DNA of 64,000 nt from Bacteroidota bacterium (GTDB lineage Bacteria > Bacteroidota > Bacteroidia > JAHEXY01): NCBI GenBank assembly GCA_023251875.1, contig JAHEXY010000001.1:248001-312000 (forward strand), read 5' to 3'. The notes beneath the pieces are model-generated. The model did not search any database. It was not told where the DNA came from and saw only the letters and a program-made list of their open reading frames with translations. Positions 47,263-58,734 of this stretch are shown here, one piece after another; positions within the stretch are counted from its first letter, which is position 1, and each line of letters starts with the position of its first letter. The position numbers and the translations under genes were made by a program.

Positions 47263-47288
47263 CCTCTGTGGCTCTGTGCCTCTGTGGT
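47263..47288 (+). repeat. Half-element of the period-8 ACCRCAKAG repeat family
   Basis: CCTCTGTGGCTCTGTGCCTC followed by TGTGGT; the reverse strand reads in 8-nt units CACAGAGG, CACAGAGC, CACAGAGG. No matching left arm was found nearby, so this is one arm only. It is 12 nt before the GTG start of the glycosyltransferase gene. Confidence 0.65.
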
Positions 47289-50712: not shown

Positions 50713-51711
50713 ATGGAAAGTACAAATACAGACATTCGTGAATTAAACGAGCGAATTCAACGTGAAAGTGCCTTTGTTGATATGCTTAATATGGAAATCA
50801 ATAAGGTAATTGTTGGACAAAAATACATGATAGAGCGATTACTTATTGGGCTTTTATCGAATGGGCATATTTTGCTAGAAGGTGTGCCGGGCTTAGCAAA
50901 AACACTTGCCATAAATACTTTGTCAAAAACCATTAATGCAAAATTTAGCCGTATTCAGTTTACGCCCGATTTGCTTCCTGCTGATTTATTAGGAACCATG
51001 ATTTATAGTCAGAAAAAAGAAGAATTTGTGGTGAAAAAAGGACCGCTTTTTTCAAATTTTGTGTTGGCAGATGAGATTAATCGTTCTCCGGCTAAAGTAC
51101 AAAGTGCATTGCTCGAAGCTATGCAAGAAAGACAAATTACAATCGGAGAACAAACGTATAAATTAGAAGAACCCTTTTTAGTTTTAGCTACTCAAAACCC
51201 AATTGATCAAGAAGGAACTTATCCTTTACCGGAAGCTCAGGTAGATCGTTTTATGCTAAAGGTTGTAATTGGATACCCAAGTAAAGAAGATGAAAAATTA
51301 ATTATTCGTCAGAATTTGGCTAAGGCTTTTCCAAAGGCTGTTGAAATATTATCTACTGATGCCATTATTAAAGCTAGAGATGTGGTTAAAGAAGTTTATA
51401 TGGATGAAAAAATTGAGCAATATATAGTAGATATTGTTTTTGCTACACGTTTCCCTAAGGAATACAAATTAAGCAAGTTTTCTTCTTTGATCAGTTATGG
51501 AGGTTCACCTCGTGCAAGTATTAGTCTTGCTCAAGCTGCTAAAGCCTATGCATTTATTAAGAGAAGAGGCTATGTAATTCCGGAAGATGTGCGTGCAGTT
51601 TGTGCAGATGTATTGCGTCACCGTATTGGATTAACCTACGAAGCAGAAGCAGAAAATATCACAACAGAGAATATTATTACTGAGATATTGAATGTGGTAG
51701 AAGTACCCTAG
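50713..51711 (+). CDS. moxR: MoxR-family AAA+ ATPase
   Basis: 332 residues. Walker A LLEGVPGLAKT near residue 55, Walker B FVLADEINRSPAKVQSALLE near 115, sensor 1 LATQNPIDQEGTYPLPEAQ near 160, then a helical lid. MoxR ATPases are thought to act as chaperones that help assemble or activate the von Willebrand factor A (VWA) proteins encoded beside them. First gene of the operon moxR-DUF58-X-batA-batB-batC-batD-batE. The gap to the next gene holds a period-8 inverted repeat. Confidence 0.93.
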   Translation: MESTNTDIRELNERIQRESAFVDMLNMEINKVIVGQKYMIERLLIGLLSNGHILLEGVPGLAKTLAINTLSKTINAKFSRIQFTPDLLPADLLGTMIYSQKKEEFVVKKGPLFSNFVLADEINRSPAKVQSALLEAMQERQITIGEQTYKLEEPFLVLATQNPIDQEGTYPLPEAQVDRFMLKVVIGYPSKEDEKLIIRQNLAKAFPKAVEILSTDAIIKARDVVKEVYMDEKIEQYIVDIVFATRFPKEYKLSKFSSLISYGGSPRASISLAQAAKAYAFIKRRGYVIPEDVRAVCADVLRHRIGLTYEAEAENITTENIITEILNVVEVP

Positions 51712-51712
51712 T

Positions 51713-51802
51713 TAATTTGAAAATTAGCTAATTTGAAAATGTGGCAATGTTGAGAATTTCGATATTCATTTTCAAATTTATTCATTTTCAAATTTTCAAA
51801 TT
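51713..51802 (+). repeat. Period-8 convergent-arm element between moxR and DUF58 genes
   Basis: Left arm (51714-51741): AATTTGAAAATTAGCTAATT then TGAAAATG, i.e. TTTGAAAA, TTAGCTAA, TTTGAAAA. Right arm (51767-51802) on the reverse strand reads TTTGAAAA, TTTGAAAA, TGAATAAA, TTTGAAAA. The arms can pair over about 28 nt around a 25-nt loop. The element fills the whole 97-bp gap. Confidence 0.75.
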
Positions 51803-51808
51803 GATAAA

Positions 51809-52678
51809 ATGGAAACATCAGCATTATTAAAAAAAGTACGTAAGATTGAAATTAAAACACGAGGACTCTCAAGCCAGGTTTTTTCCGGAGAGTACCATAG
51901 TGCTTTTAAGGGAAAGGGTATGACTTTTTCTGAAGTTAGGGAATATCAGTATGGAGACGATATTAGAAGTATTGATTGGAATGTTACTGCTCGTTTTAAT
52001 GCTCCTTATGTGAAAATATTTGAAGAAGAACGAGAGCTTACCGTAATGCTTTTAGTTGATGTAAGTGGTTCAAAAGAATTTGGAACTCAAAAACAATTGA
52101 AGCAAGATTTGGTTACTGAAATTGCTGCAGTGTTGGCTTTTTCTGCCATTCAAAATAATGATAAAGTGGGAGTAATTTTATTCAGCAATAAGATTGAAAA
52201 GTTTATTTCTCCTAAAAAAGGTTCAGCACATATTTTAAGAATTATTAGAGAGCTTATTAATTTTGAACCAACAAGTCGAGAAACAGATATTGCAGAAGCC
52301 TTGCGTTATTTTACCAATGTTATAAAAAAGAAAAGTACTGCATTTTTAATTTCAGATTTAATTGGAAAAAAATTTGATGATGCCATTAAAATCACCAATA
52401 AAAAACACGATTTAGTTGCCGTACGTGTGTATGATGTAAGAGAAACTGAAATTCCTCCAATGGGTTTGGTAAAAGTTAAAGATGCAGAAACCGGAAAAAT
52501 GATTTGGGTAAATACCTCAAGCCAAAAAGTAAGAGACCATTATAAAATATGGTGGAAACAACAAGAAGAACGCGTAAATGATTTGTTGAAGAAAAGTGGA
52601 GTTGATGCAGTTTCTATTCGTACAGATCAGGATTATGTTAGGCCACTGATGAATTTATTTAAAAAGCGTGAGAAGTGA
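51809..52678 (+). CDS. DUF58 domain protein of the bat operon
   Basis: 289 residues without a signal peptide. Family start RKIEIKTRGLSSQVFSGEYH and the diagnostic EYQYGDDIRSIDWNVTARF near residue 48, then a VWA-like fold with DVSGSKEFG near 90 in place of a MIDAS motif. DUF58 proteins accompany MoxR ATPases and Bat VWA proteins and are presumed to be soluble partners. The last four bases, GTGA, overlap the next reading frame. Confidence 0.92.
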   Translation: METSALLKKVRKIEIKTRGLSSQVFSGEYHSAFKGKGMTFSEVREYQYGDDIRSIDWNVTARFNAPYVKIFEEERELTVMLLVDVSGSKEFGTQKQLKQDLVTEIAAVLAFSAIQNNDKVGVILFSNKIEKFISPKKGSAHILRIIRELINFEPTSRETDIAEALRYFTNVIKKKSTAFLISDLIGKKFDDAIKITNKKHDLVAVRVYDVRETEIPPMGLVKVKDAETGKMIWVNTSSQKVRDHYKIWWKQQEERVNDLLKKSGVDAVSIRTDQDYVRPLMNLFKKREK

Positions 52679-53703
52679 AAATGAGTTCAACGTTCAATAA
52701 TTCAAAGTTTAAAGTTCAAGGAACAAAGTTCAAATATATTGGACTTAGTTCTTGTATATCAAAAATCTTTCAATCTTTCAATTTTTCAATTTTTCAATTT
52801 ACGTTATTATTCATTATTCATTGTTCATTATTCACTGTAAATGCACAAGATATTTCTGTTGTTGCAAAATTCGATTCTTCAAACGTAATTAAAATTGGGG
52901 ACCAGCTTCAATTGCATCTTAAAGCACAGTTGCCGAAGAATACAAACATTATCTGGCCAAGCATTGTGGATACAATTTCCAAACAAATTGAAATCGTAAA
53001 AAAATCTGTAATAGATACAAGTTTTGCTTCCGATAGTCAGCATGTGGTTCTTTCTCAAACATTATATCTCACTTCATTTGATTCGGGATATTGGGCTATT
53101 CCTCCCTTCAAGTTTACTACTGTAGTTGGAAAAGATTCCAGTGCATTTGAAACAGAGCCTTTGCTTTTACAAGTAAATACCATTGCTGTAGATACCACAC
53201 AAGCCATTAAAGAAATTAAAGAACCATTAGATATACCAATTGGCTGGGAAGAAATTGCGTCTTATGTGATTGGAGGAATAGTTTTATTGGCACTACTTAT
53301 TTTAGCCTTTTATTTTATCAGAAAATACAGAAACAAACCCAAAGAAATTATTGTTGAGAAAAAACCGGATATTCCACCTCATATTATTGCGCTTGAAAAA
53401 TTAGAGAAACTAAAGGAGCAACAACTTTGGCAAAATAACCAAACAAAAGAATACCACGCTGTACTTTCTGAAATTGTGAGAACCTATCTTGAAAATCGTT
53501 ATCAATTTAACGCATTGGAATTTACTACCGATGAAATTATGCAAGCTATTAGAAATATTGAAGTCCCAACTGAAATGGTTTCAAAATTGCGACAATTATT
53601 AGTGCTGTCCGACATGGCGAAATTTGCCAAAGAGCAACCTTTGCCAAATGAAAACGAATTGAGTATGAATAATGCAGTAGAATTTATAAATCAAACTAAA
53701 TAA
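52675..53703 (+). CDS. BatD-related membrane protein with a repeat-derived signal region
   Basis: 342 residues, starting at GTG 52675 (overlapping the DUF58 stop as GTGA) or ATG 52681. Residues 1-58 are peculiar: they are encoded by three different period-7/8 repeat tracts (52686-52735, 52764-52800, 52806-52835), and the last two give the hydrophobic core FQFTLLFIIHCSLFTVNAQ, which works as a signal peptide. The mature part has a beta-rich periplasmic domain (about 60-190), one transmembrane helix (VIGGIVLLALLILAFYFI, about 208-226) and a helical cytoplasmic tail of 115 residues. This layout matches the short BatD-like/DUF4381-like proteins between DUF58 and batA genes in Bacteroidota. Confidence 0.8.
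   Translation: MKMSSTFNNSKFKVQGTKFKYIGLSSCISKIFQSFNFSIFQFTLLFIIHCSLFTVNAQDISVVAKFDSSNVIKIGDQLQLHLKAQLPKNTNIIWPSIVDTISKQIEIVKKSVIDTSFASDSQHVVLSQTLYLTSFDSGYWAIPPFKFTTVVGKDSSAFETEPLLLQVNTIAVDTTQAIKEIKEPLDIPIGWEEIASYVIGGIVLLALLILAFYFIRKYRNKPKEIIVEKKPDIPPHIIALEKLEKLKEQQLWQNNQTKEYHAVLSEIVRTYLENRYQFNALEFTTDEIMQAIRNIEVPTEMVSKLRQLLVLSDMAKFAKEQPLPNENELSMNNAVEFINQTK
52686..52835 (+). repeat. Composite of three period-7/8 repeat tracts inside coding sequence
   Basis: Tract i (52686-52735): GTTCAAT, AATTCAAA, GTTTAAA, GTTCAAG, GAACAAA, GTTCAAA. Tract ii (52764-52800): AATCTTTC twice, AATTTTTC twice. Tract iii (52806-52835): ATTATTC, ATTATTC, ATTGTTC, ATTATTC. Tract i matches the element at 54784 and tract ii the right arm at 58710-58734. 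Their complements are not found on the other side, so they are single arms placed in series. Confidence 0.75.
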
Positions 53704-53714
53704 AATAAATAATT

Positions 53715-53757
53715 CCAAACTCTCCCTCTCTTTTGGAGAGGGGTAGGGAGAGGTCAT
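53715..53757 (+). repeat. REP-like palindromic repeat, copy 6
   Basis: CCAAACTCTCCCTCTC, then TTTTGGAGAG and the tail GGGTAGGGAGAGGTC. It fills the gap between the BatD-related gene and batA. Confidence 0.75.
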
Positions 53758-53782
53758 AAACTAAAAAACATTGAACTAAAAA

Positions 53783-54778
53783 TTGATCCCTGATTTTGCA
53801 AATAAAGAATATTTTTTTCTCTTACTGGTTATCCCGGTAATGCTATACTGGTATTGGAGAAAGCGTAATAATTCTCATGCAGAGCTTCAAATTTCTTCAA
53901 TTGAAGGATTTGAAACTACTTCATCAGCTTCCATTTTGCCCAAATTACGTCATACCTTATTTGTGTTAAGAATAGTAGGAATTAGCTCTTTGATTATTGC
54001 TATGGCTCGTCCACAATCAAGTACGAGTTGGCAAGAAGTAAAAACAGAAGGTATTGATATTGTATTAGCGCTGGATATTTCTGGAAGTATGATGGCAAAA
54101 GATTTTAAACCAGATCGTTTAAGCGCAGCCAAAGAAAATGCAATGAATTTTATTGAAGAGCGTCCAAATGATCGAATTGGCTTGGTTATTTTTAGTGGAG
54201 AAAGCTTTACGCAATGTCCATTAACAACAGACCATTCTGTATTAAAAAATTTGTTTGCTGATATTAAAAGTGGCATGATTAAAGATGGTACTGCCATTGG
54301 TATGGGTTTGGGAACTGCCGTAAATCGCTTGCGTGGATCTGAAGCAAAAAGTAAAGTAATTATTCTTTTAACCGATGGTGTAAATAATTCAGGCGATTTA
54401 TCTCCCATGACAGCAGCTAAACTTGCGCAAGGAGAAAACATTCGAGTTTATACAATTGGTGTGGGAACAATTGGTCAGGCACCATTTCCATATCAAGATA
54501 TGTTTGGCAATATACAATATCAAATGGTAGATGTGAAAATTGATGAGGATTTAATGAAATCGATTGCTGATATGACCGGTGGAAAATATTTTAGGGCAAC
54601 TGACGAAAATAAATTAAAAGATATTTATAAAGAAATTGACCAACTCGAAAAATCAAAAATTAACTCAACAGAATTTCGCAAGCATACTGAATTGTTTTTC
54701 TGGTATGCATTTTTTGGAATATTATTAATAGTATTAGAAATGGCATTGAGGTATACTTTGTTTAGAAGTGTTCCTTAA
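53783..54778 (+). CDS. batA: BatA, von Willebrand factor A membrane protein
   Basis: 331 residues. The frame has no ATG before residue 20; the TTG at 53783 (read as Met, then IPDFANKEYFFLLL) is needed to keep the first transmembrane helix. Helices at about 10-25 and 55-73, then a VWA domain with MIDAS motif DISGSMMAKD near residue 98 and LLTDGVNNSGD near 195, and a C-terminal helix at about 305-325. It projects into the periplasm and, with BatB, forms part of the Bat complex linked to oxygen tolerance and envelope stress. Confidence 0.9.
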   Translation: MIPDFANKEYFFLLLVIPVMLYWYWRKRNNSHAELQISSIEGFETTSSASILPKLRHTLFVLRIVGISSLIIAMARPQSSTSWQEVKTEGIDIVLALDISGSMMAKDFKPDRLSAAKENAMNFIEERPNDRIGLVIFSGESFTQCPLTTDHSVLKNLFADIKSGMIKDGTAIGMGLGTAVNRLRGSEAKSKVIILLTDGVNNSGDLSPMTAAKLAQGENIRVYTIGVGTIGQAPFPYQDMFGNIQYQMVDVKIDEDLMKSIADMTGGKYFRATDENKLKDIYKEIDQLEKSKINSTEFRKHTELFFWYAFFGILLIVLEMALRYTLFRSVP

Positions 54779-54783
54779 AAACC

Positions 54784-54864
54784 GGTTCAAAGTTCAATGT
54801 TAGAAAGTTTAAAGTTTTTGATAAATGACTTTACTCCTCAACCTTGAACTTTCAAACTTTAAAC
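54784..54864 (+). repeat. Period-7 convergent-arm element between batA and batB
   Basis: Left arm (54784-54820): GTTCAAA, GTTCAAT, GTTAGAAA, GTTTAAA, GTTTTTG. Right arm (54842-54864) reads on the reverse strand GTTTAAA, GTTTGAAA, GTTCAAG. Loop about 20 nt. The element nearly fills the gap. Confidence 0.75.
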
Positions 54865-54871
54865 TAAAGTA

Positions 54872-55915
54872 ATGGAACTATTCCGTTTTCAACATATAGA
54901 ATATTTATACGGCTTACTGGCAATACCGGTATTTGTTATCATTTATGCATTAATGCTTGCTTGGAAAAGGAAAGCATTAAATGAGTTCGGTTCTATTAAA
55001 GTGATCAAACAATTAATGCCTGAAGTGTCATCTGCAAAACCTTTGTTGAAATTTATTATCATGTTATTTGCTTTTGCATTTCTTGTTGTTGGATTAGCCA
55101 ATCCACAAATAGGATCTAAAATGGAAGAAGTAAAACGTGAGGGGATAGATATTGTGGTTGCATTAGATTTATCTAATAGTATGTTGGCTGAAGATTTAAC
55201 GCCTAGCCGTTTAGAAAAAGCCAAAAATGCCATTTCGCAATTAATTGACAAATTGCATGGAGATAGAATTGGAGTAGTGGTGTTTGCAGGAGACGCCTAT
55301 GTTCAACTTCCTATTACAACTGATTATGCCGCAGCAAAATTATTTTTATCGACTATTAATACAGAGATGATTCCAACTCAAGGAACAGCTATTGGTTCTG
55401 CAATTGAATTGGCCATAAAATCTTTTGGAGATAAAAATGAAAATAGCAAATCTATTATTGTAATAACGGATGGAGAAAATCATGAAGACGATGCATTGGC
55501 ACAAGCGCAAGAAGCAGTAAAAAAGGGAATAGTTGTGCATACAATTGGAATGGGATCTCCTCAAGGAGCACCAATACCAACTTATTTGCATGGACAGCTT
55601 GCAGGATATAGAAAAGATAAAGATGGAACAACAGTTGTTACCAAATTAGATGAAGCTATGCTGCAACAATTAGCAGCTGCCGGAAATGGTATTTATATTC
55701 GTGCTAATAATACACAAGTAGGTTTAGATATTTTATTTGAACAATTAAATAAAATGCAAAAAAAAGAATATGGTAGTAAAATGTTTACTGATTACGAAGA
55801 TCGTTTTCAAATTTTCTTTGGAATAGCACTACTTTTACTTGTTCTTGAATTTTTTATTTCGGAAAGAAGAAGCAAATGGTGGGCAAAAATTAATTTATTT
55901 GGTGATTCAAAATGA
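54872..55915 (+). CDS. batB: BatB, von Willebrand factor A membrane protein
   Basis: 347 residues, paralogue of BatA. Transmembrane helices near residues 10-28 and 57-76, VWA domain with MIDAS DLSNSMLAEDL near residue 98 and VITDGENHEDD near 195, and a C-terminal helix at about 315-335. The periplasmic VWA domain is expected to interact with BatA. It ends in ATGA shared with batC, so the two are translationally coupled. Confidence 0.93.
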   Translation: MELFRFQHIEYLYGLLAIPVFVIIYALMLAWKRKALNEFGSIKVIKQLMPEVSSAKPLLKFIIMLFAFAFLVVGLANPQIGSKMEEVKREGIDIVVALDLSNSMLAEDLTPSRLEKAKNAISQLIDKLHGDRIGVVVFAGDAYVQLPITTDYAAAKLFLSTINTEMIPTQGTAIGSAIELAIKSFGDKNENSKSIIVITDGENHEDDALAQAQEAVKKGIVVHTIGMGSPQGAPIPTYLHGQLAGYRKDKDGTTVVTKLDEAMLQQLAAAGNGIYIRANNTQVGLDILFEQLNKMQKKEYGSKMFTDYEDRFQIFFGIALLLLVLEFFISERRSKWWAKINLFGDSK

Positions 55916-56739
55916 AAATTATAAAAAACATATACCGCAGAGACGCAGAGACGCAGAGATTTTATTATTATCTGGCTATGCCTTTGCGTCTTTGCGCCTT
56001 TGCGGTTGAAAAAAGATATTTATTAGCGCTATTACTTATTTTATTTTCTTTTATGAGCTTTGCTCAGCAAGACAAAAAACTTTTGCGTGATGGAAATAAA
56101 TTGTATGAGGCGAAGAAATTTACGGAAGCAGATTCTTTATACCGACAAGCATTAGGAACCAAACAATCAACCGAGGGTGCATTTAATTTAGGAGATGCAT
56201 TGTTTCAACAAGGAAAATATGATGATGCAGCTCAACAATTTCAGAGTATTACTTCTCAAGATGTAGATAAAGAAACCAAAGCAAAAGCATATCATAATCT
56301 TGGAAATTCATTATTGCAATCTAAAAAATACCAAGAAAGTGTTGATGCTTATAAAAATGCTTTACGAGCCAATCCAAGTGACGATGACACAAAATATAAT
56401 TTAGCTTATGCTCAGAAAAAACTAATTCAACAACAGCAGCAGCAACAACAACAGCAACAAAACCAGGATAAAAATAAAGATCAAGATAAAAAAGATCAAC
56501 AAAACAAAGACGATAAAAACAAAGATCAAAAAGATCAGGATAAGAATGATGACCAGCAGGCCGATAAAGATAAAAAAGATGATAAAAAGCAAGGCCAGCA
56601 ACCAAAGCCTGACGATATTTCAAAACAAGATGCCGATCGTATGCTTGATGCATTAAATAAAGATGAACAAGATCTTCAAAAAGATTTGCAAAAAAAGAAA
56701 GCTAAAGTTGCAGTGGTAAAAATTGATAAGGATTGGTAA
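55912..56739 (+). CDS. batC: BatC, TPR protein with polyglutamine tract and a repeat-encoded N-terminus
   Basis: 275 residues from ATG 55912, which overlaps batB as ATGA. Codons 8-32 are made by a period-8 inverted repeat (55934-56006) and read RRDAETQR ... PLRLCAFAV; the true signal peptide (YLLALLLILFSFMSFAQ) follows. Residues about 55-165 form TPRs (LYEAKKFTEADSLYRQAL, AYHNLGNSLLQSKKYQESVD). A run of 12 Gln (about 173-184) leads into a Lys/Asp-rich tail (DKNKDQDKKDQQNKDDKNKD). BatC is a periplasmic partner of BatA/BatB. The insertion has kept the frame. Confidence 0.9.
   Translation: MKIIKNIYRRDAETQRFYYYLAMPLRLCAFAVEKRYLLALLLILFSFMSFAQQDKKLLRDGNKLYEAKKFTEADSLYRQALGTKQSTEGAFNLGDALFQQGKYDDAAQQFQSITSQDVDKETKAKAYHNLGNSLLQSKKYQESVDAYKNALRANPSDDDTKYNLAYAQKKLIQQQQQQQQQQQNQDKNKDQDKKDQQNKDDKNKDQKDQDKNDDQQADKDKKDDKKQGQQPKPDDISKQDADRMLDALNKDEQDLQKDLQKKKAKVAVVKIDKDW
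55934..56006 (+). repeat. Period-8 convergent-arm element inside batC
   Basis: Left arm ACCGCAGAGACGCAGAGACG plus CAGAG (55934-55958), units GCAGAGAC. Right arm (55981-56006) ends CTTTGCGCCTTTGCGGT. They pair over 25 positions with one mismatch if G-U pairs are allowed in the plus-strand RNA. Loop 22 nt. Confidence 0.85.
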
Positions 56740-56742
56740 AAA

Positions 56743-56832
56743 ATAATTAGCTAATTAGTAGATGTGATAATTAGCTAATGAAAAAATTATTAACGCATCA
56801 GCTAATTAGCTAATTAGCTAATCAGCTAATTT
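56743..56832 (+). repeat. Period-8 element between batC and batD
   Basis: TAATTAGCTAATTAG (56744-56758) and TAATTAGCTAAT (56768-56779) form the left part; the right part (56801-56832) is four 8-nt units GCTAATTA, GCTAATTA, GCTAATCA, GCTAATTT. The unit is itself palindromic, so many pairings are possible. Confidence 0.75.
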
Positions 56833-56839
56833 CGTAACT

Positions 56840-58645
56840 ATGAAAAACACAATATTAACAATTATATTATTACTTGGCTACGCAGTAACAATGTCAGCCA
56901 ACTTCACCGCTTCGGTTAATAAAACTACTGTTGCTGTAGGAGAAACTTTTCAATTAACTTTTTCTGTTAATACTAGCGCATCTGGTTTTAAAGCTCCAAG
57001 TTTTACTGATTTTCAAATCTTGTCCGGCCCTAATCAATCAACAAGTATGAGTATAGTAAATGGAAGTATGTCGCAATCTATTTCGTACTCTTATTATTTG
57101 CAACCATTTAAAGAGGGAGAATTTACCATACCTGCGGCCAGCATTAATGCTGATGGAAAAATAATTTCTTCTAACCCCATTAAAATAAAGGTTGTAAAAG
57201 GTGCTGCGGCTCCAAGTCAAAACCAACAACAGCAGCAACAGAATGGAAATACACAACAGCAATCTGCTTCAGGAGGCAATGCCGGAAACGATATTTTTCT
57301 TAGAGCAGTAGTTGATAAATCAAGTATGTATCAAGGAGAACAATTTGTAGTTACTTTCAAATTGTATACCCGTAAACAAATTTCAGGTTTAGACGCAGAA
57401 AAACTTCCGGCATTTGATGGATTTTGGTCAAAAGATATTGATATCCCTAATCAAATTTCTTTATCTACAGAAAATGTAGATGGTGTAAATTACAATGTTG
57501 GTGTAATTAAAAAATGTGTATTGTTTCCGCAACATTCCGGTTCCTTAGAAATAGGACCTATGGAAATTAATGTTAATGCTTTGGAAGCAGCCAAACCTCG
57601 CAATTGGATGGAGCAAATGATGGGGGGGGGACAAAAGGAAGTAAAATACACGCTTAAAAGTAAGCCAGTAAAAATTAATGTAAATGCATTGCCCGAACCT
57701 AAACCTGCAGATTTTAGTGGCATTGTTGGTAATATTTCAATGAAAGATAATATTGATAAAACTTCAGTAAAAACCAATGATGCTATTAATTTATCCATTA
57801 CTATTTCCGGTAGCGGAAATTTAAGTTTAATTGATTCTCCTAAACTTTCTTTTCCAACAGATTTTGAAGCTTACGATCCTAAAATAAAAGATAATATTAC
57901 TACCAATAGCAGTGGTGTTTCAGGAAGCAGAACTTATGATTATTTATTAATTCCCCGTCATCCCGGTGATTTTGAAATTCCTGTTGTTACACTTTCTTAT
58001 TTTGATGCTAGTAAAAAAAATTATGTAACGCTGCAAACAAAAAAGTACAGTATTCATGTTGATAAAGGAGAAGGTTATGACGAAAGTGCTGTTACTTCCG
58101 GAATTCAAAATAAAGAAGACATCAAATATATTGGTAGCGATATTCATTTTATAAAAACCAATTCTTTTACATTAAAAAAGCAAGCGGAACATTTTTATCG
58201 TTCGTTTTTATTTTATCTATTGCTTGTAATACAGCTTTTGGGTTTTACCGCTTTTGTAGTGTACCGACAAATACAAATAAAAGACAATAGCAATATTGGA
58301 TTAAAGAAAAGTCGTGAAGCTGCTAAAATGGCTAAAAAACGATTGAGCAAAGCTCAGGTATATTTAAAAGAAAATAAAAAAGATCAGTTTTATGAAGAAA
58401 TATTTACTGCCCTCTGGGGATTTTTAGGAGATAAATTAGGCATACCTGTTTCTGAATTAAATAAAGAAGTAGTTGGAGAACGATTGCAAAAAAAACAAGT
58501 AAAAGACGAAACCATAAAACAATTAATGGATACGATTAATACTTGTGAATTTGCTCGATTTGCTCCCGGAGGAAATTCTCAACAAGAAAATATTTACAAC
58601 GATGCTATGGGAGTGATAATGAAAGTTGCAGAAGAGATTAAATAA
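56840..58645 (+). CDS. batD: BatD, oxygen-tolerance membrane protein
   Basis: 601 residues. Signal peptide MKNTILTIILLLGYAVTMSA; then FTASVNKTTVAVGETFQLTF, the BatD hallmark start, and repeated beta-sandwich domains with KSSMYQGEQFVVTFKLYTRK near residue 162 and RHPGDFEIPVVTLSYFD near 373. One C-terminal transmembrane helix (FLFYLLLVIQLLGFTAFVVY, about 455-475) precedes a cytoplasmic helical tail. A Gln-rich spacer lies near 127-140. A run of nine G occurs within codons for MMGGGQ at 57622-57630, notable in this AT-rich genome. Confidence 0.93.
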   Translation: MKNTILTIILLLGYAVTMSANFTASVNKTTVAVGETFQLTFSVNTSASGFKAPSFTDFQILSGPNQSTSMSIVNGSMSQSISYSYYLQPFKEGEFTIPAASINADGKIISSNPIKIKVVKGAAAPSQNQQQQQQNGNTQQQSASGGNAGNDIFLRAVVDKSSMYQGEQFVVTFKLYTRKQISGLDAEKLPAFDGFWSKDIDIPNQISLSTENVDGVNYNVGVIKKCVLFPQHSGSLEIGPMEINVNALEAAKPRNWMEQMMGGGQKEVKYTLKSKPVKINVNALPEPKPADFSGIVGNISMKDNIDKTSVKTNDAINLSITISGSGNLSLIDSPKLSFPTDFEAYDPKIKDNITTNSSGVSGSRTYDYLLIPRHPGDFEIPVVTLSYFDASKKNYVTLQTKKYSIHVDKGEGYDESAVTSGIQNKEDIKYIGSDIHFIKTNSFTLKKQAEHFYRSFLFYLLLVIQLLGFTAFVVYRQIQIKDNSNIGLKKSREAAKMAKKRLSKAQVYLKENKKDQFYEEIFTALWGFLGDKLGIPVSELNKEVVGERLQKKQVKDETIKQLMDTINTCEFARFAPGGNSQQENIYNDAMGVIMKVAEEIK

Positions 58646-58650
58646 TTAAA

Positions 58651-58734
58651 AATTGAAAGATTGTAAAATTGAAAGATTGTAAAGATTAATTTTAGAATAT
58701 AATTTTTTTAATCTTTTAACCTTTCAATCTTTCC
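58651..58734 (+). repeat. Period-8 convergent-arm element between batD and batE
   Basis: Left arm is a perfect tandem of the 16-mer AATTGAAAGATTGTAA (58651-58682), itself two 8-nt units. The right arm (58710-58734) reads on the reverse strand GGAAAGAT, TGAAAGGT, TAAAAGAT. Inner sequences AAAGATTAA and TTAATCTTT pair well. It covers most of the 102-bp gap. Confidence 0.8.

Follow-up and report, generated by a model that had tools for sequence, protein, structure and literature searches.

An in-frame hairpin in batC as a probable gene-less copy of a GxxExxY-associated repeat element

The batC gene of this Bacteroidota bacterium contains, close behind its start codon, a 73-base inverted repeat at positions 55934-56006 of the 64-kb window (the whole stretch of DNA that was analysed). 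We consider, with a probability of roughly two in three, that this hairpin is a gene-less copy, resembling REPINs and Rickettsia palindromic elements (RPEs), of a mobile element associated with GxxExxY genes, and that it has been tolerated in frame. The full-length form would consist of a GxxExxY gene between two arms of tandem CRCAGAG/T units, and a non-autonomous copy without the gene would have inserted in frame just past the batC start codon, leaving a BatC that presumably still works. We hypothesise, from sequence comparison, that these units are recognised by the GxxExxY nuclease, which may move such short copies in trans.

Structure and placement of the batC hairpin

The features of the batB-batC junction are as follows.

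54872-55915, + strand: batB (VWA, BatA_N)
55912-56739, + strand: batC, encoding a TPR protein of 275 aa (TPR families matched)
55934-55958, + strand: left arm of the hairpin, three CGCAGAGA-type units (ACCGCAGAGACGCAGAGACGCAGAG)
55959-55981, + strand: AT-rich loop, with an in-frame ATG at 55978-55980 as a possible alternative batC start
55982-56006, + strand: right arm of the hairpin (CTTTGCGTCTTTGCGCCTTTGCGGT)

Two 25-nt arms surround a 23-nt loop, and the unit period is 8 nt, with CGCAGAGA repeated 3.0 times (100% matches) and GCCTTTGC repeated 3.1 times in a degenerate form. The arms showed 84% Watson-Crick complementarity, corresponding on the plus strand to 21 Watson-Crick pairs, three G-U pairs and one mismatch. 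An earlier sequence-only reading had described an inverted repeat of 8-nt units at codons 8-32, with 24 of 25 positions paired on the plus strand if three G-U pairs are counted; we recovered the same arms, units, coordinates and count. The predicted RNA fold of 55928-56012 reached -39.4 kcal/mol on the plus strand (z -7.64, with none of 200 shuffles folding as well) and -35.2 kcal/mol on the minus strand (z -6.90). The motif ACCGCAGAGACGCAGAG had 0 expected occurrences in shuffles of the window, and the GC content of the hairpin was 49%, as compared with 32.6% in the window and 32.2% in the remainder of batC. The hairpin ends in ACC...GGT and lacks the GTAG/CGTC tag of REP/REPIN sequences. No Rfam family came close to its gathering score at the hairpin, and no target-site duplication was evident by eye at the batC, radA and fabD sites.

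The batB stop codon (TGA, 55913-55915) overlaps the batC ATG at 55912 in an ATGA arrangement; the hairpin starts 22 nt into batC and the reading frame is open throughout. The signal-peptide core of BatC, RYLLALLLILFSFMSFA-QQ, lies downstream of the hairpin codons, so that the start is separated from the hydrophobic core by about 34 residues, as compared with about 3-17 in homologues (about fifteen BatC proteins with a readable start, drawn from other families within the class, with beginnings such as MKKLFFLLLF, MKGLFFIGLF and MRNRLNILILF). When 72 nt are deleted from batC, MKIIKNIYEKRYLLALLL remains, in frame, and the shortened gene encodes MKIIKNIYEKRYLLALLLILFSFMSFA-QQ, an ordinary signal peptide. 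No BatC relative of more than 49% identity was found in the genome contigs searched, where the nearest genomes belong to the same class. The comparison with protein homologues supports the reading of the hairpin as a translated repeat foreign to BatC and inserted in frame. The earlier claim that the peptide RRDAETQR...LRLCAF is a translated repeat and not BatC sequence therefore held, since the class homologues lack this segment. The 24 added residues probably form the n-region of the signal peptide and are thus expected to be removed with it, in which case mature BatC should be unchanged. The hairpin appears harmless because this end of BatC is probably cut off during export.

We regard it as somewhat unlikely that batC begins at the loop ATG, which would leave the hairpin partly or wholly untranslated, with only its right arm coded. 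That ATG is in frame and preceded by an AT-rich stretch, a start there (M23) would yield a signal peptide of normal length (MPLRLCAFAVEKRYLLALLL...), and REPs at the N-termini of ORFs often lie outside the true coding region (PMC3733652). However, the ATGA overlap favours coupled initiation at 55912, the frame is preserved across the entire hairpin, and the right arm would be translated even with an M23 start. The sequence-only reading had argued from the overlap that translation starts upstream of the hairpin; the overlap and the open frame stand, but the loop ATG is a second possible start, and because of it the left arm is probably, though not certainly, translated. A start in the loop is compatible with a mobile element and would alter only the extent to which the hairpin has been absorbed into the protein.

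The 25-nt arms are stop-free in all six frames, a property that shuffling the joined arms reproduced in 2.5% of cases; the entire hairpin is open in the three plus-strand frames, and the loop carries stops on the minus strand. Since 8 and 3 share no common factor, all frames of a strand read one 8-residue cycle, RRDAETQR forward and SLRLCVSA in reverse, without stops. An 8-nt period with a stop-free cycle is thus expected to produce spurious ORFs as well as real fusions. We suggest that the hairpin persists in batC because its arms are stop-free in every frame and because it lies in a signal peptide that is probably cleaved.

A dispersed repeat family and its GxxExxY genes

The search for further copies, also proposed from the sequence alone, was positive: CRCARAGNCRCARAG gave 51 matches in this genome, as compared with 2 for the reversed control pattern. 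The copies comprise solo arms, bare hairpins (for example C5:245087-245197, C14:133768-133853 and C18:51916-51968) and pairs of arms separated by about 400 bp. About 30 places in this genome hold the CGCAGAG unit. It was also found in 21 more genomes of the class sample, one of these being a chance coding match, and on plasmids from Alpha- and Gammaproteobacteria, Cyanobacteria and Gemmatimonadota. Many arms stand alone, and the solo copies had no partner arm within 1.5 kb; one of them lies in the window.

47264-47287, - strand: same-family arm (ACCACAGAGGCACAGAG-type) in an intergenic gap, with no inverted partner nearby

Among about two dozen copies checked in this genome, three enter ORFs, all at protein ends: besides the one in batC, one lies at the N-terminus of an ORF of 314 aa and one at the C-terminus of an ORF of 447 aa. 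In the 314-aa ORF (C14:161736), which matched no Pfam family, the arm peptide MTKKITAEAQRRR... lies upstream of a signal-like core. A single arm was also observed in another genome (G119), where it falls in the signal-peptide region of a protein that contains repeats, and a Thiodictyon plasmid carries, at about 1455-1524 of its locus, a hairpin with reversed unit order, a CTCTGCG arm being followed by a CGCAGAG arm. Arms lay between co-directional genes in 22 of 26 cases, close to the window background of about 32 of 40 counted gene pairs, which leaves operon-junction targeting by arms unsupported.

In this genome, arm pairs enclose a PF13366 gene (PDDEXK_3, GxxExxY, PD-(D/E)XK), and for three PF13366 genes arms of this family lie no more than about 460 bp away. 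Between the arms of the batC copy there is only the 23-nt loop and no PF13366 gene, and full-length copies are found in the same genome. Across the class, 26 of 31 PF13366 loci had inverted arms on both sides at a score of at least 27, the maximum in 29 control loci being 25. The same arrangement was found for four-helix PF05635 genes (23S_rRNA_IVP), 18 of 27 of which lie between inverted arms, with units such as GTTAGTT, AGATGTT and GTACAAA. The unit CRCxRA[GT] was present in both arms of 21 of the 26 GxxExxY pairs and in none of the 18 IVP pairs (Fisher 3.4e-8); thus, the architecture is common to the two gene families and the unit is gene-specific. At the four-helix 23S-IVP genes (L204-L233), the tandem 7-8-nt arm units vary from locus to locus. 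Like the full-length copies, the batC hairpin has two inverted arms of tandem CRCAGAG/T units, and on this sequence basis it is classed as a gene-less derivative of the GxxExxY-associated family. The sequence-only reading had found the hairpin and its in-frame placement, and had overlooked the GxxExxY link, the loop ATG and the operon arrays described below.

The nuclease itself looks intact, because the active-site D, K and Q are invariant in 35 PF13366 proteins and E is present in 34. Of 149 genomes sampled in the class, 103 have PF13366/GxxExxY genes. Such genes were present in 21 of 22 genomes with the arm motif as compared with 82 of 127 others (p = 0.002); in the one exception (L244), the motif matched by chance inside a GC-rich gene. 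This association is partly common to PF05635 (p = 0.08) and may reflect genome size. When arms were ranked by best partner, the true partner came first in 12 of 30 cases, a partial result on which we do not claim co-evolution of the arms. A complete hairpin was observed on each side of a GxxExxY gene on a Gemmatirosa plasmid (790-877 and downstream of 1365 of its locus). No GxxExxY match was found among phage records, and no solved GxxExxY structure was found. In the openly licensed literature, we found no paper on GxxExxY function, two papers that mention GxxExxY, at least one of them in passing, and one that mentions PF13366; there was no occurrence of the arm sequence or its peptide, and no description of the association between GxxExxY genes and these arms.

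Occupied and empty sites, tandem arrays and RNA folding

Relatives have empty sites for the arm-gene-arm units at three places. A congener lacks the full element between gltX and folB (names given from a reading of the flanking proteins), and in its empty site the stop and start codons overlap as TAATG; GACTTTGAAAT/GACTGTGAAAT may form an imperfect repeat of 11 bp at the gltX-folB site. Full elements are likewise present in one and absent from the other of Bacteroides finegoldii and Parabacteroides distasonis, between radA and a FAD-dependent gene, and of Sphingomonas parapaucimobilis and S. paeninsulae, between fabD and fabG. No consistent target duplication was seen across the full-element sites.

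A second in-frame case was found in another genus, where genome G086 carries the same hairpin in prmC, directly before NPPYI (ILEFYRRGAETQSNNKDKKNSAPLHLRGEKKFDLIVSNPPYI), in a product with PrmC_N and methyltransferase domains. All six congeners examined have intact prmC genes without this hairpin, and at the same site they hold other 8-9-nt arrays (CACCAATTC, TCTCACCT and TAACACCT), translated as HQFAKSP etc. One of the replacing units is itself dispersed in the genus, with 59 matches versus 0 for the control and several inverted pairs. A second prmC loop also varies (L264-L270), with different dispersed repeats in different species, and a TTCGAGCGTAGTCGAGAA palindrome is among the repeats of the prmC loops in this genus, reaching dozens of copies in some genomes. 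As the arrays differ among congeners, these permissive loops turn over tandem-unit elements.

Along the MoxR-DUF58-batABCDE operon (51709-58732), most junctions hold tandem arrays or hairpins of 7-8-nt units, the unit differing from one junction to the next, and the remainder of the window has almost no such arrays. Besides the batC hairpin, they are the following, none with an assigned strand.

51709-51802: 8-nt-unit hairpin (AATTTGAA/TTCAAATT) in the gap between the MoxR and DUF58 genes
52684-52838: 7-8-nt-unit arrays (AGTTCAA, AATTTTTC, ATTATTC) in the N-terminal coding region of a 342-aa gene
54785-54816: degenerate 7-nt-unit array (GTTCAAA) in the batA-batB gap, weak (score 34)
56743-56841: 8-nt-unit hairpin (TTAGCTAA) in the batC-batD gap
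58635-58732: 8-nt-unit array (AAAATTGA, TTTTAATC) in the batD-batE gap

The arrays at 52684-52838, whose fold was not significant (z -1.75), overlie the signal-peptide region of the 342-aa gene before batA. The N-terminus of this gene (52675-52845) consists largely of translated repeats (NSKFKVQGTKFK...FTLLFIIHCSLFTVNAQ), and its signal peptide may derive from repeat units. The readable batC-batD gaps of relatives held no comparable array, leaving a conserved function of the arrays in the bat operon unsupported.

It is improbable, in our judgement, that the batC hairpin is a local quasi-palindrome in which replication slippage expanded an 8-nt unit and template switching copied it into the opposite arm. 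Such an origin would agree with arms that are tandem arrays, with the differing unit sequences at the prmC site of the six congeners, and with the several unrelated-unit arrays in the bat operon, as if these arose repeatedly in permissive spots. However, CGCAGAG recurs at about 30 places in its own genome, in 21 other genomes of the class and on plasmids of other phyla, it is tied to one gene family, and even one of the arrays replacing it in prmC is dispersed. Slippage is disfavoured because independent events would not pick one unit.

The sequence-only reading had weakly favoured RNA folding on the transcribed strand. This preference was not borne out: over 26 GxxExxY elements read in gene orientation, the arm mismatches comprised 20 G-U and 25 A-C (p = 0.55), and the minus-strand fold of the batC hairpin is nearly equal to that of the plus strand. 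Selection for RNA pairing is unsupported by these counts. By analogy, the hairpin could still matter as RNA, as the 23S intervening sequence of Coxiella, which has a 28-bp terminal stem, tandem heptamers and an S23p ORF, is excised by RNase III (PMC4990558). A functional RNA of the bat operon, acting as an RNase III site or as a brake on translation and so separating the expression of batB and batC, with the other junction arrays acting likewise, would be in keeping with this precedent, with the very stable stem and with the arrays at most operon junctions between 51.7 and 58.7 kb. We nevertheless think such a role very improbable as the explanation of the hairpin, given the lack of a comparable batC-batD array in relatives with readable gaps, the lack of a sense-strand G-U bias and the near-background placement of copies between co-directional genes. 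In addition, the full batC hairpin does not qualify as an intrinsic terminator when read on the coding strand.

Relation to known elements and implications

RPEs are palindromes lying in frame within protein genes (PMC10969869, PMC3733652). The batC hairpin likewise lies in frame within a protein gene and is missing from its homologues, and the family resembles RPEs in placing a small palindrome of a few tens of residues in tolerated places of unrelated genes, with several families in one genome. This likeness is one of architecture and description, and we do not claim the batC hairpin as an RPE member: RPEs are described as about 150 bp, whereas the arms of the present family consist of tandem 8-nt units and its full-length members have a nuclease gene, and we know of no gene linked to RPEs. 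In REPINs, too, solo arms, paired arms and a linked gene are found (PMC3733652). As in REP/REPIN-RAYT systems, solo arms, inverted doublets and arms around one small gene coexist in one genome, mainly in intergenic and occasionally in intragenic positions; however, the gene here encodes a PD-(D/E)XK protein (PF13366) and not a Y1 HUH transposase such as RAYT, the GTAG/CGTC tag is absent, and the arms are tandem-unit arrays. The 23S intervening sequences of Coxiella and Leptospira similarly have a small ORF between long terminal inverted repeats of tandem 7-8-nt units (PMC4990558) and are inserted in transcribed sequence, but their protein family and arm units are different, and the batC copy is ORF-less and lies in an mRNA rather than in 23S rRNA. 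Like MITEs, it is short and gene-less, has terminal inverted repeats and has gene-bearing relatives; it differs in that neither a clear target-site duplication nor a known transposase was found.

We tentatively propose a broader hypothesis, itself rather doubtful, that GxxExxY proteins may be the mobility enzymes of a widespread, undescribed transposon-like class without a classical transposase. The PD-(D/E)XK nuclease would recognise tandem CRCAGAG/T units in both arms and mobilise its own gene, bare hairpins and solo arms; the IVP genes would share this architecture with a unit code of their own, and the elements together would feed stop-free peptides into host proteins. The arrangement of most PF13366 genes between inverted arms of one unit type, the presence or absence of whole units between relatives and the turning of bare copies into coding sequence together give the GxxExxY family a testable role and point to a source of new peptide segments. 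With the stop-free 8-residue cycle, they also explain odd database peptides such as RRDAETQR...LRLCAF.
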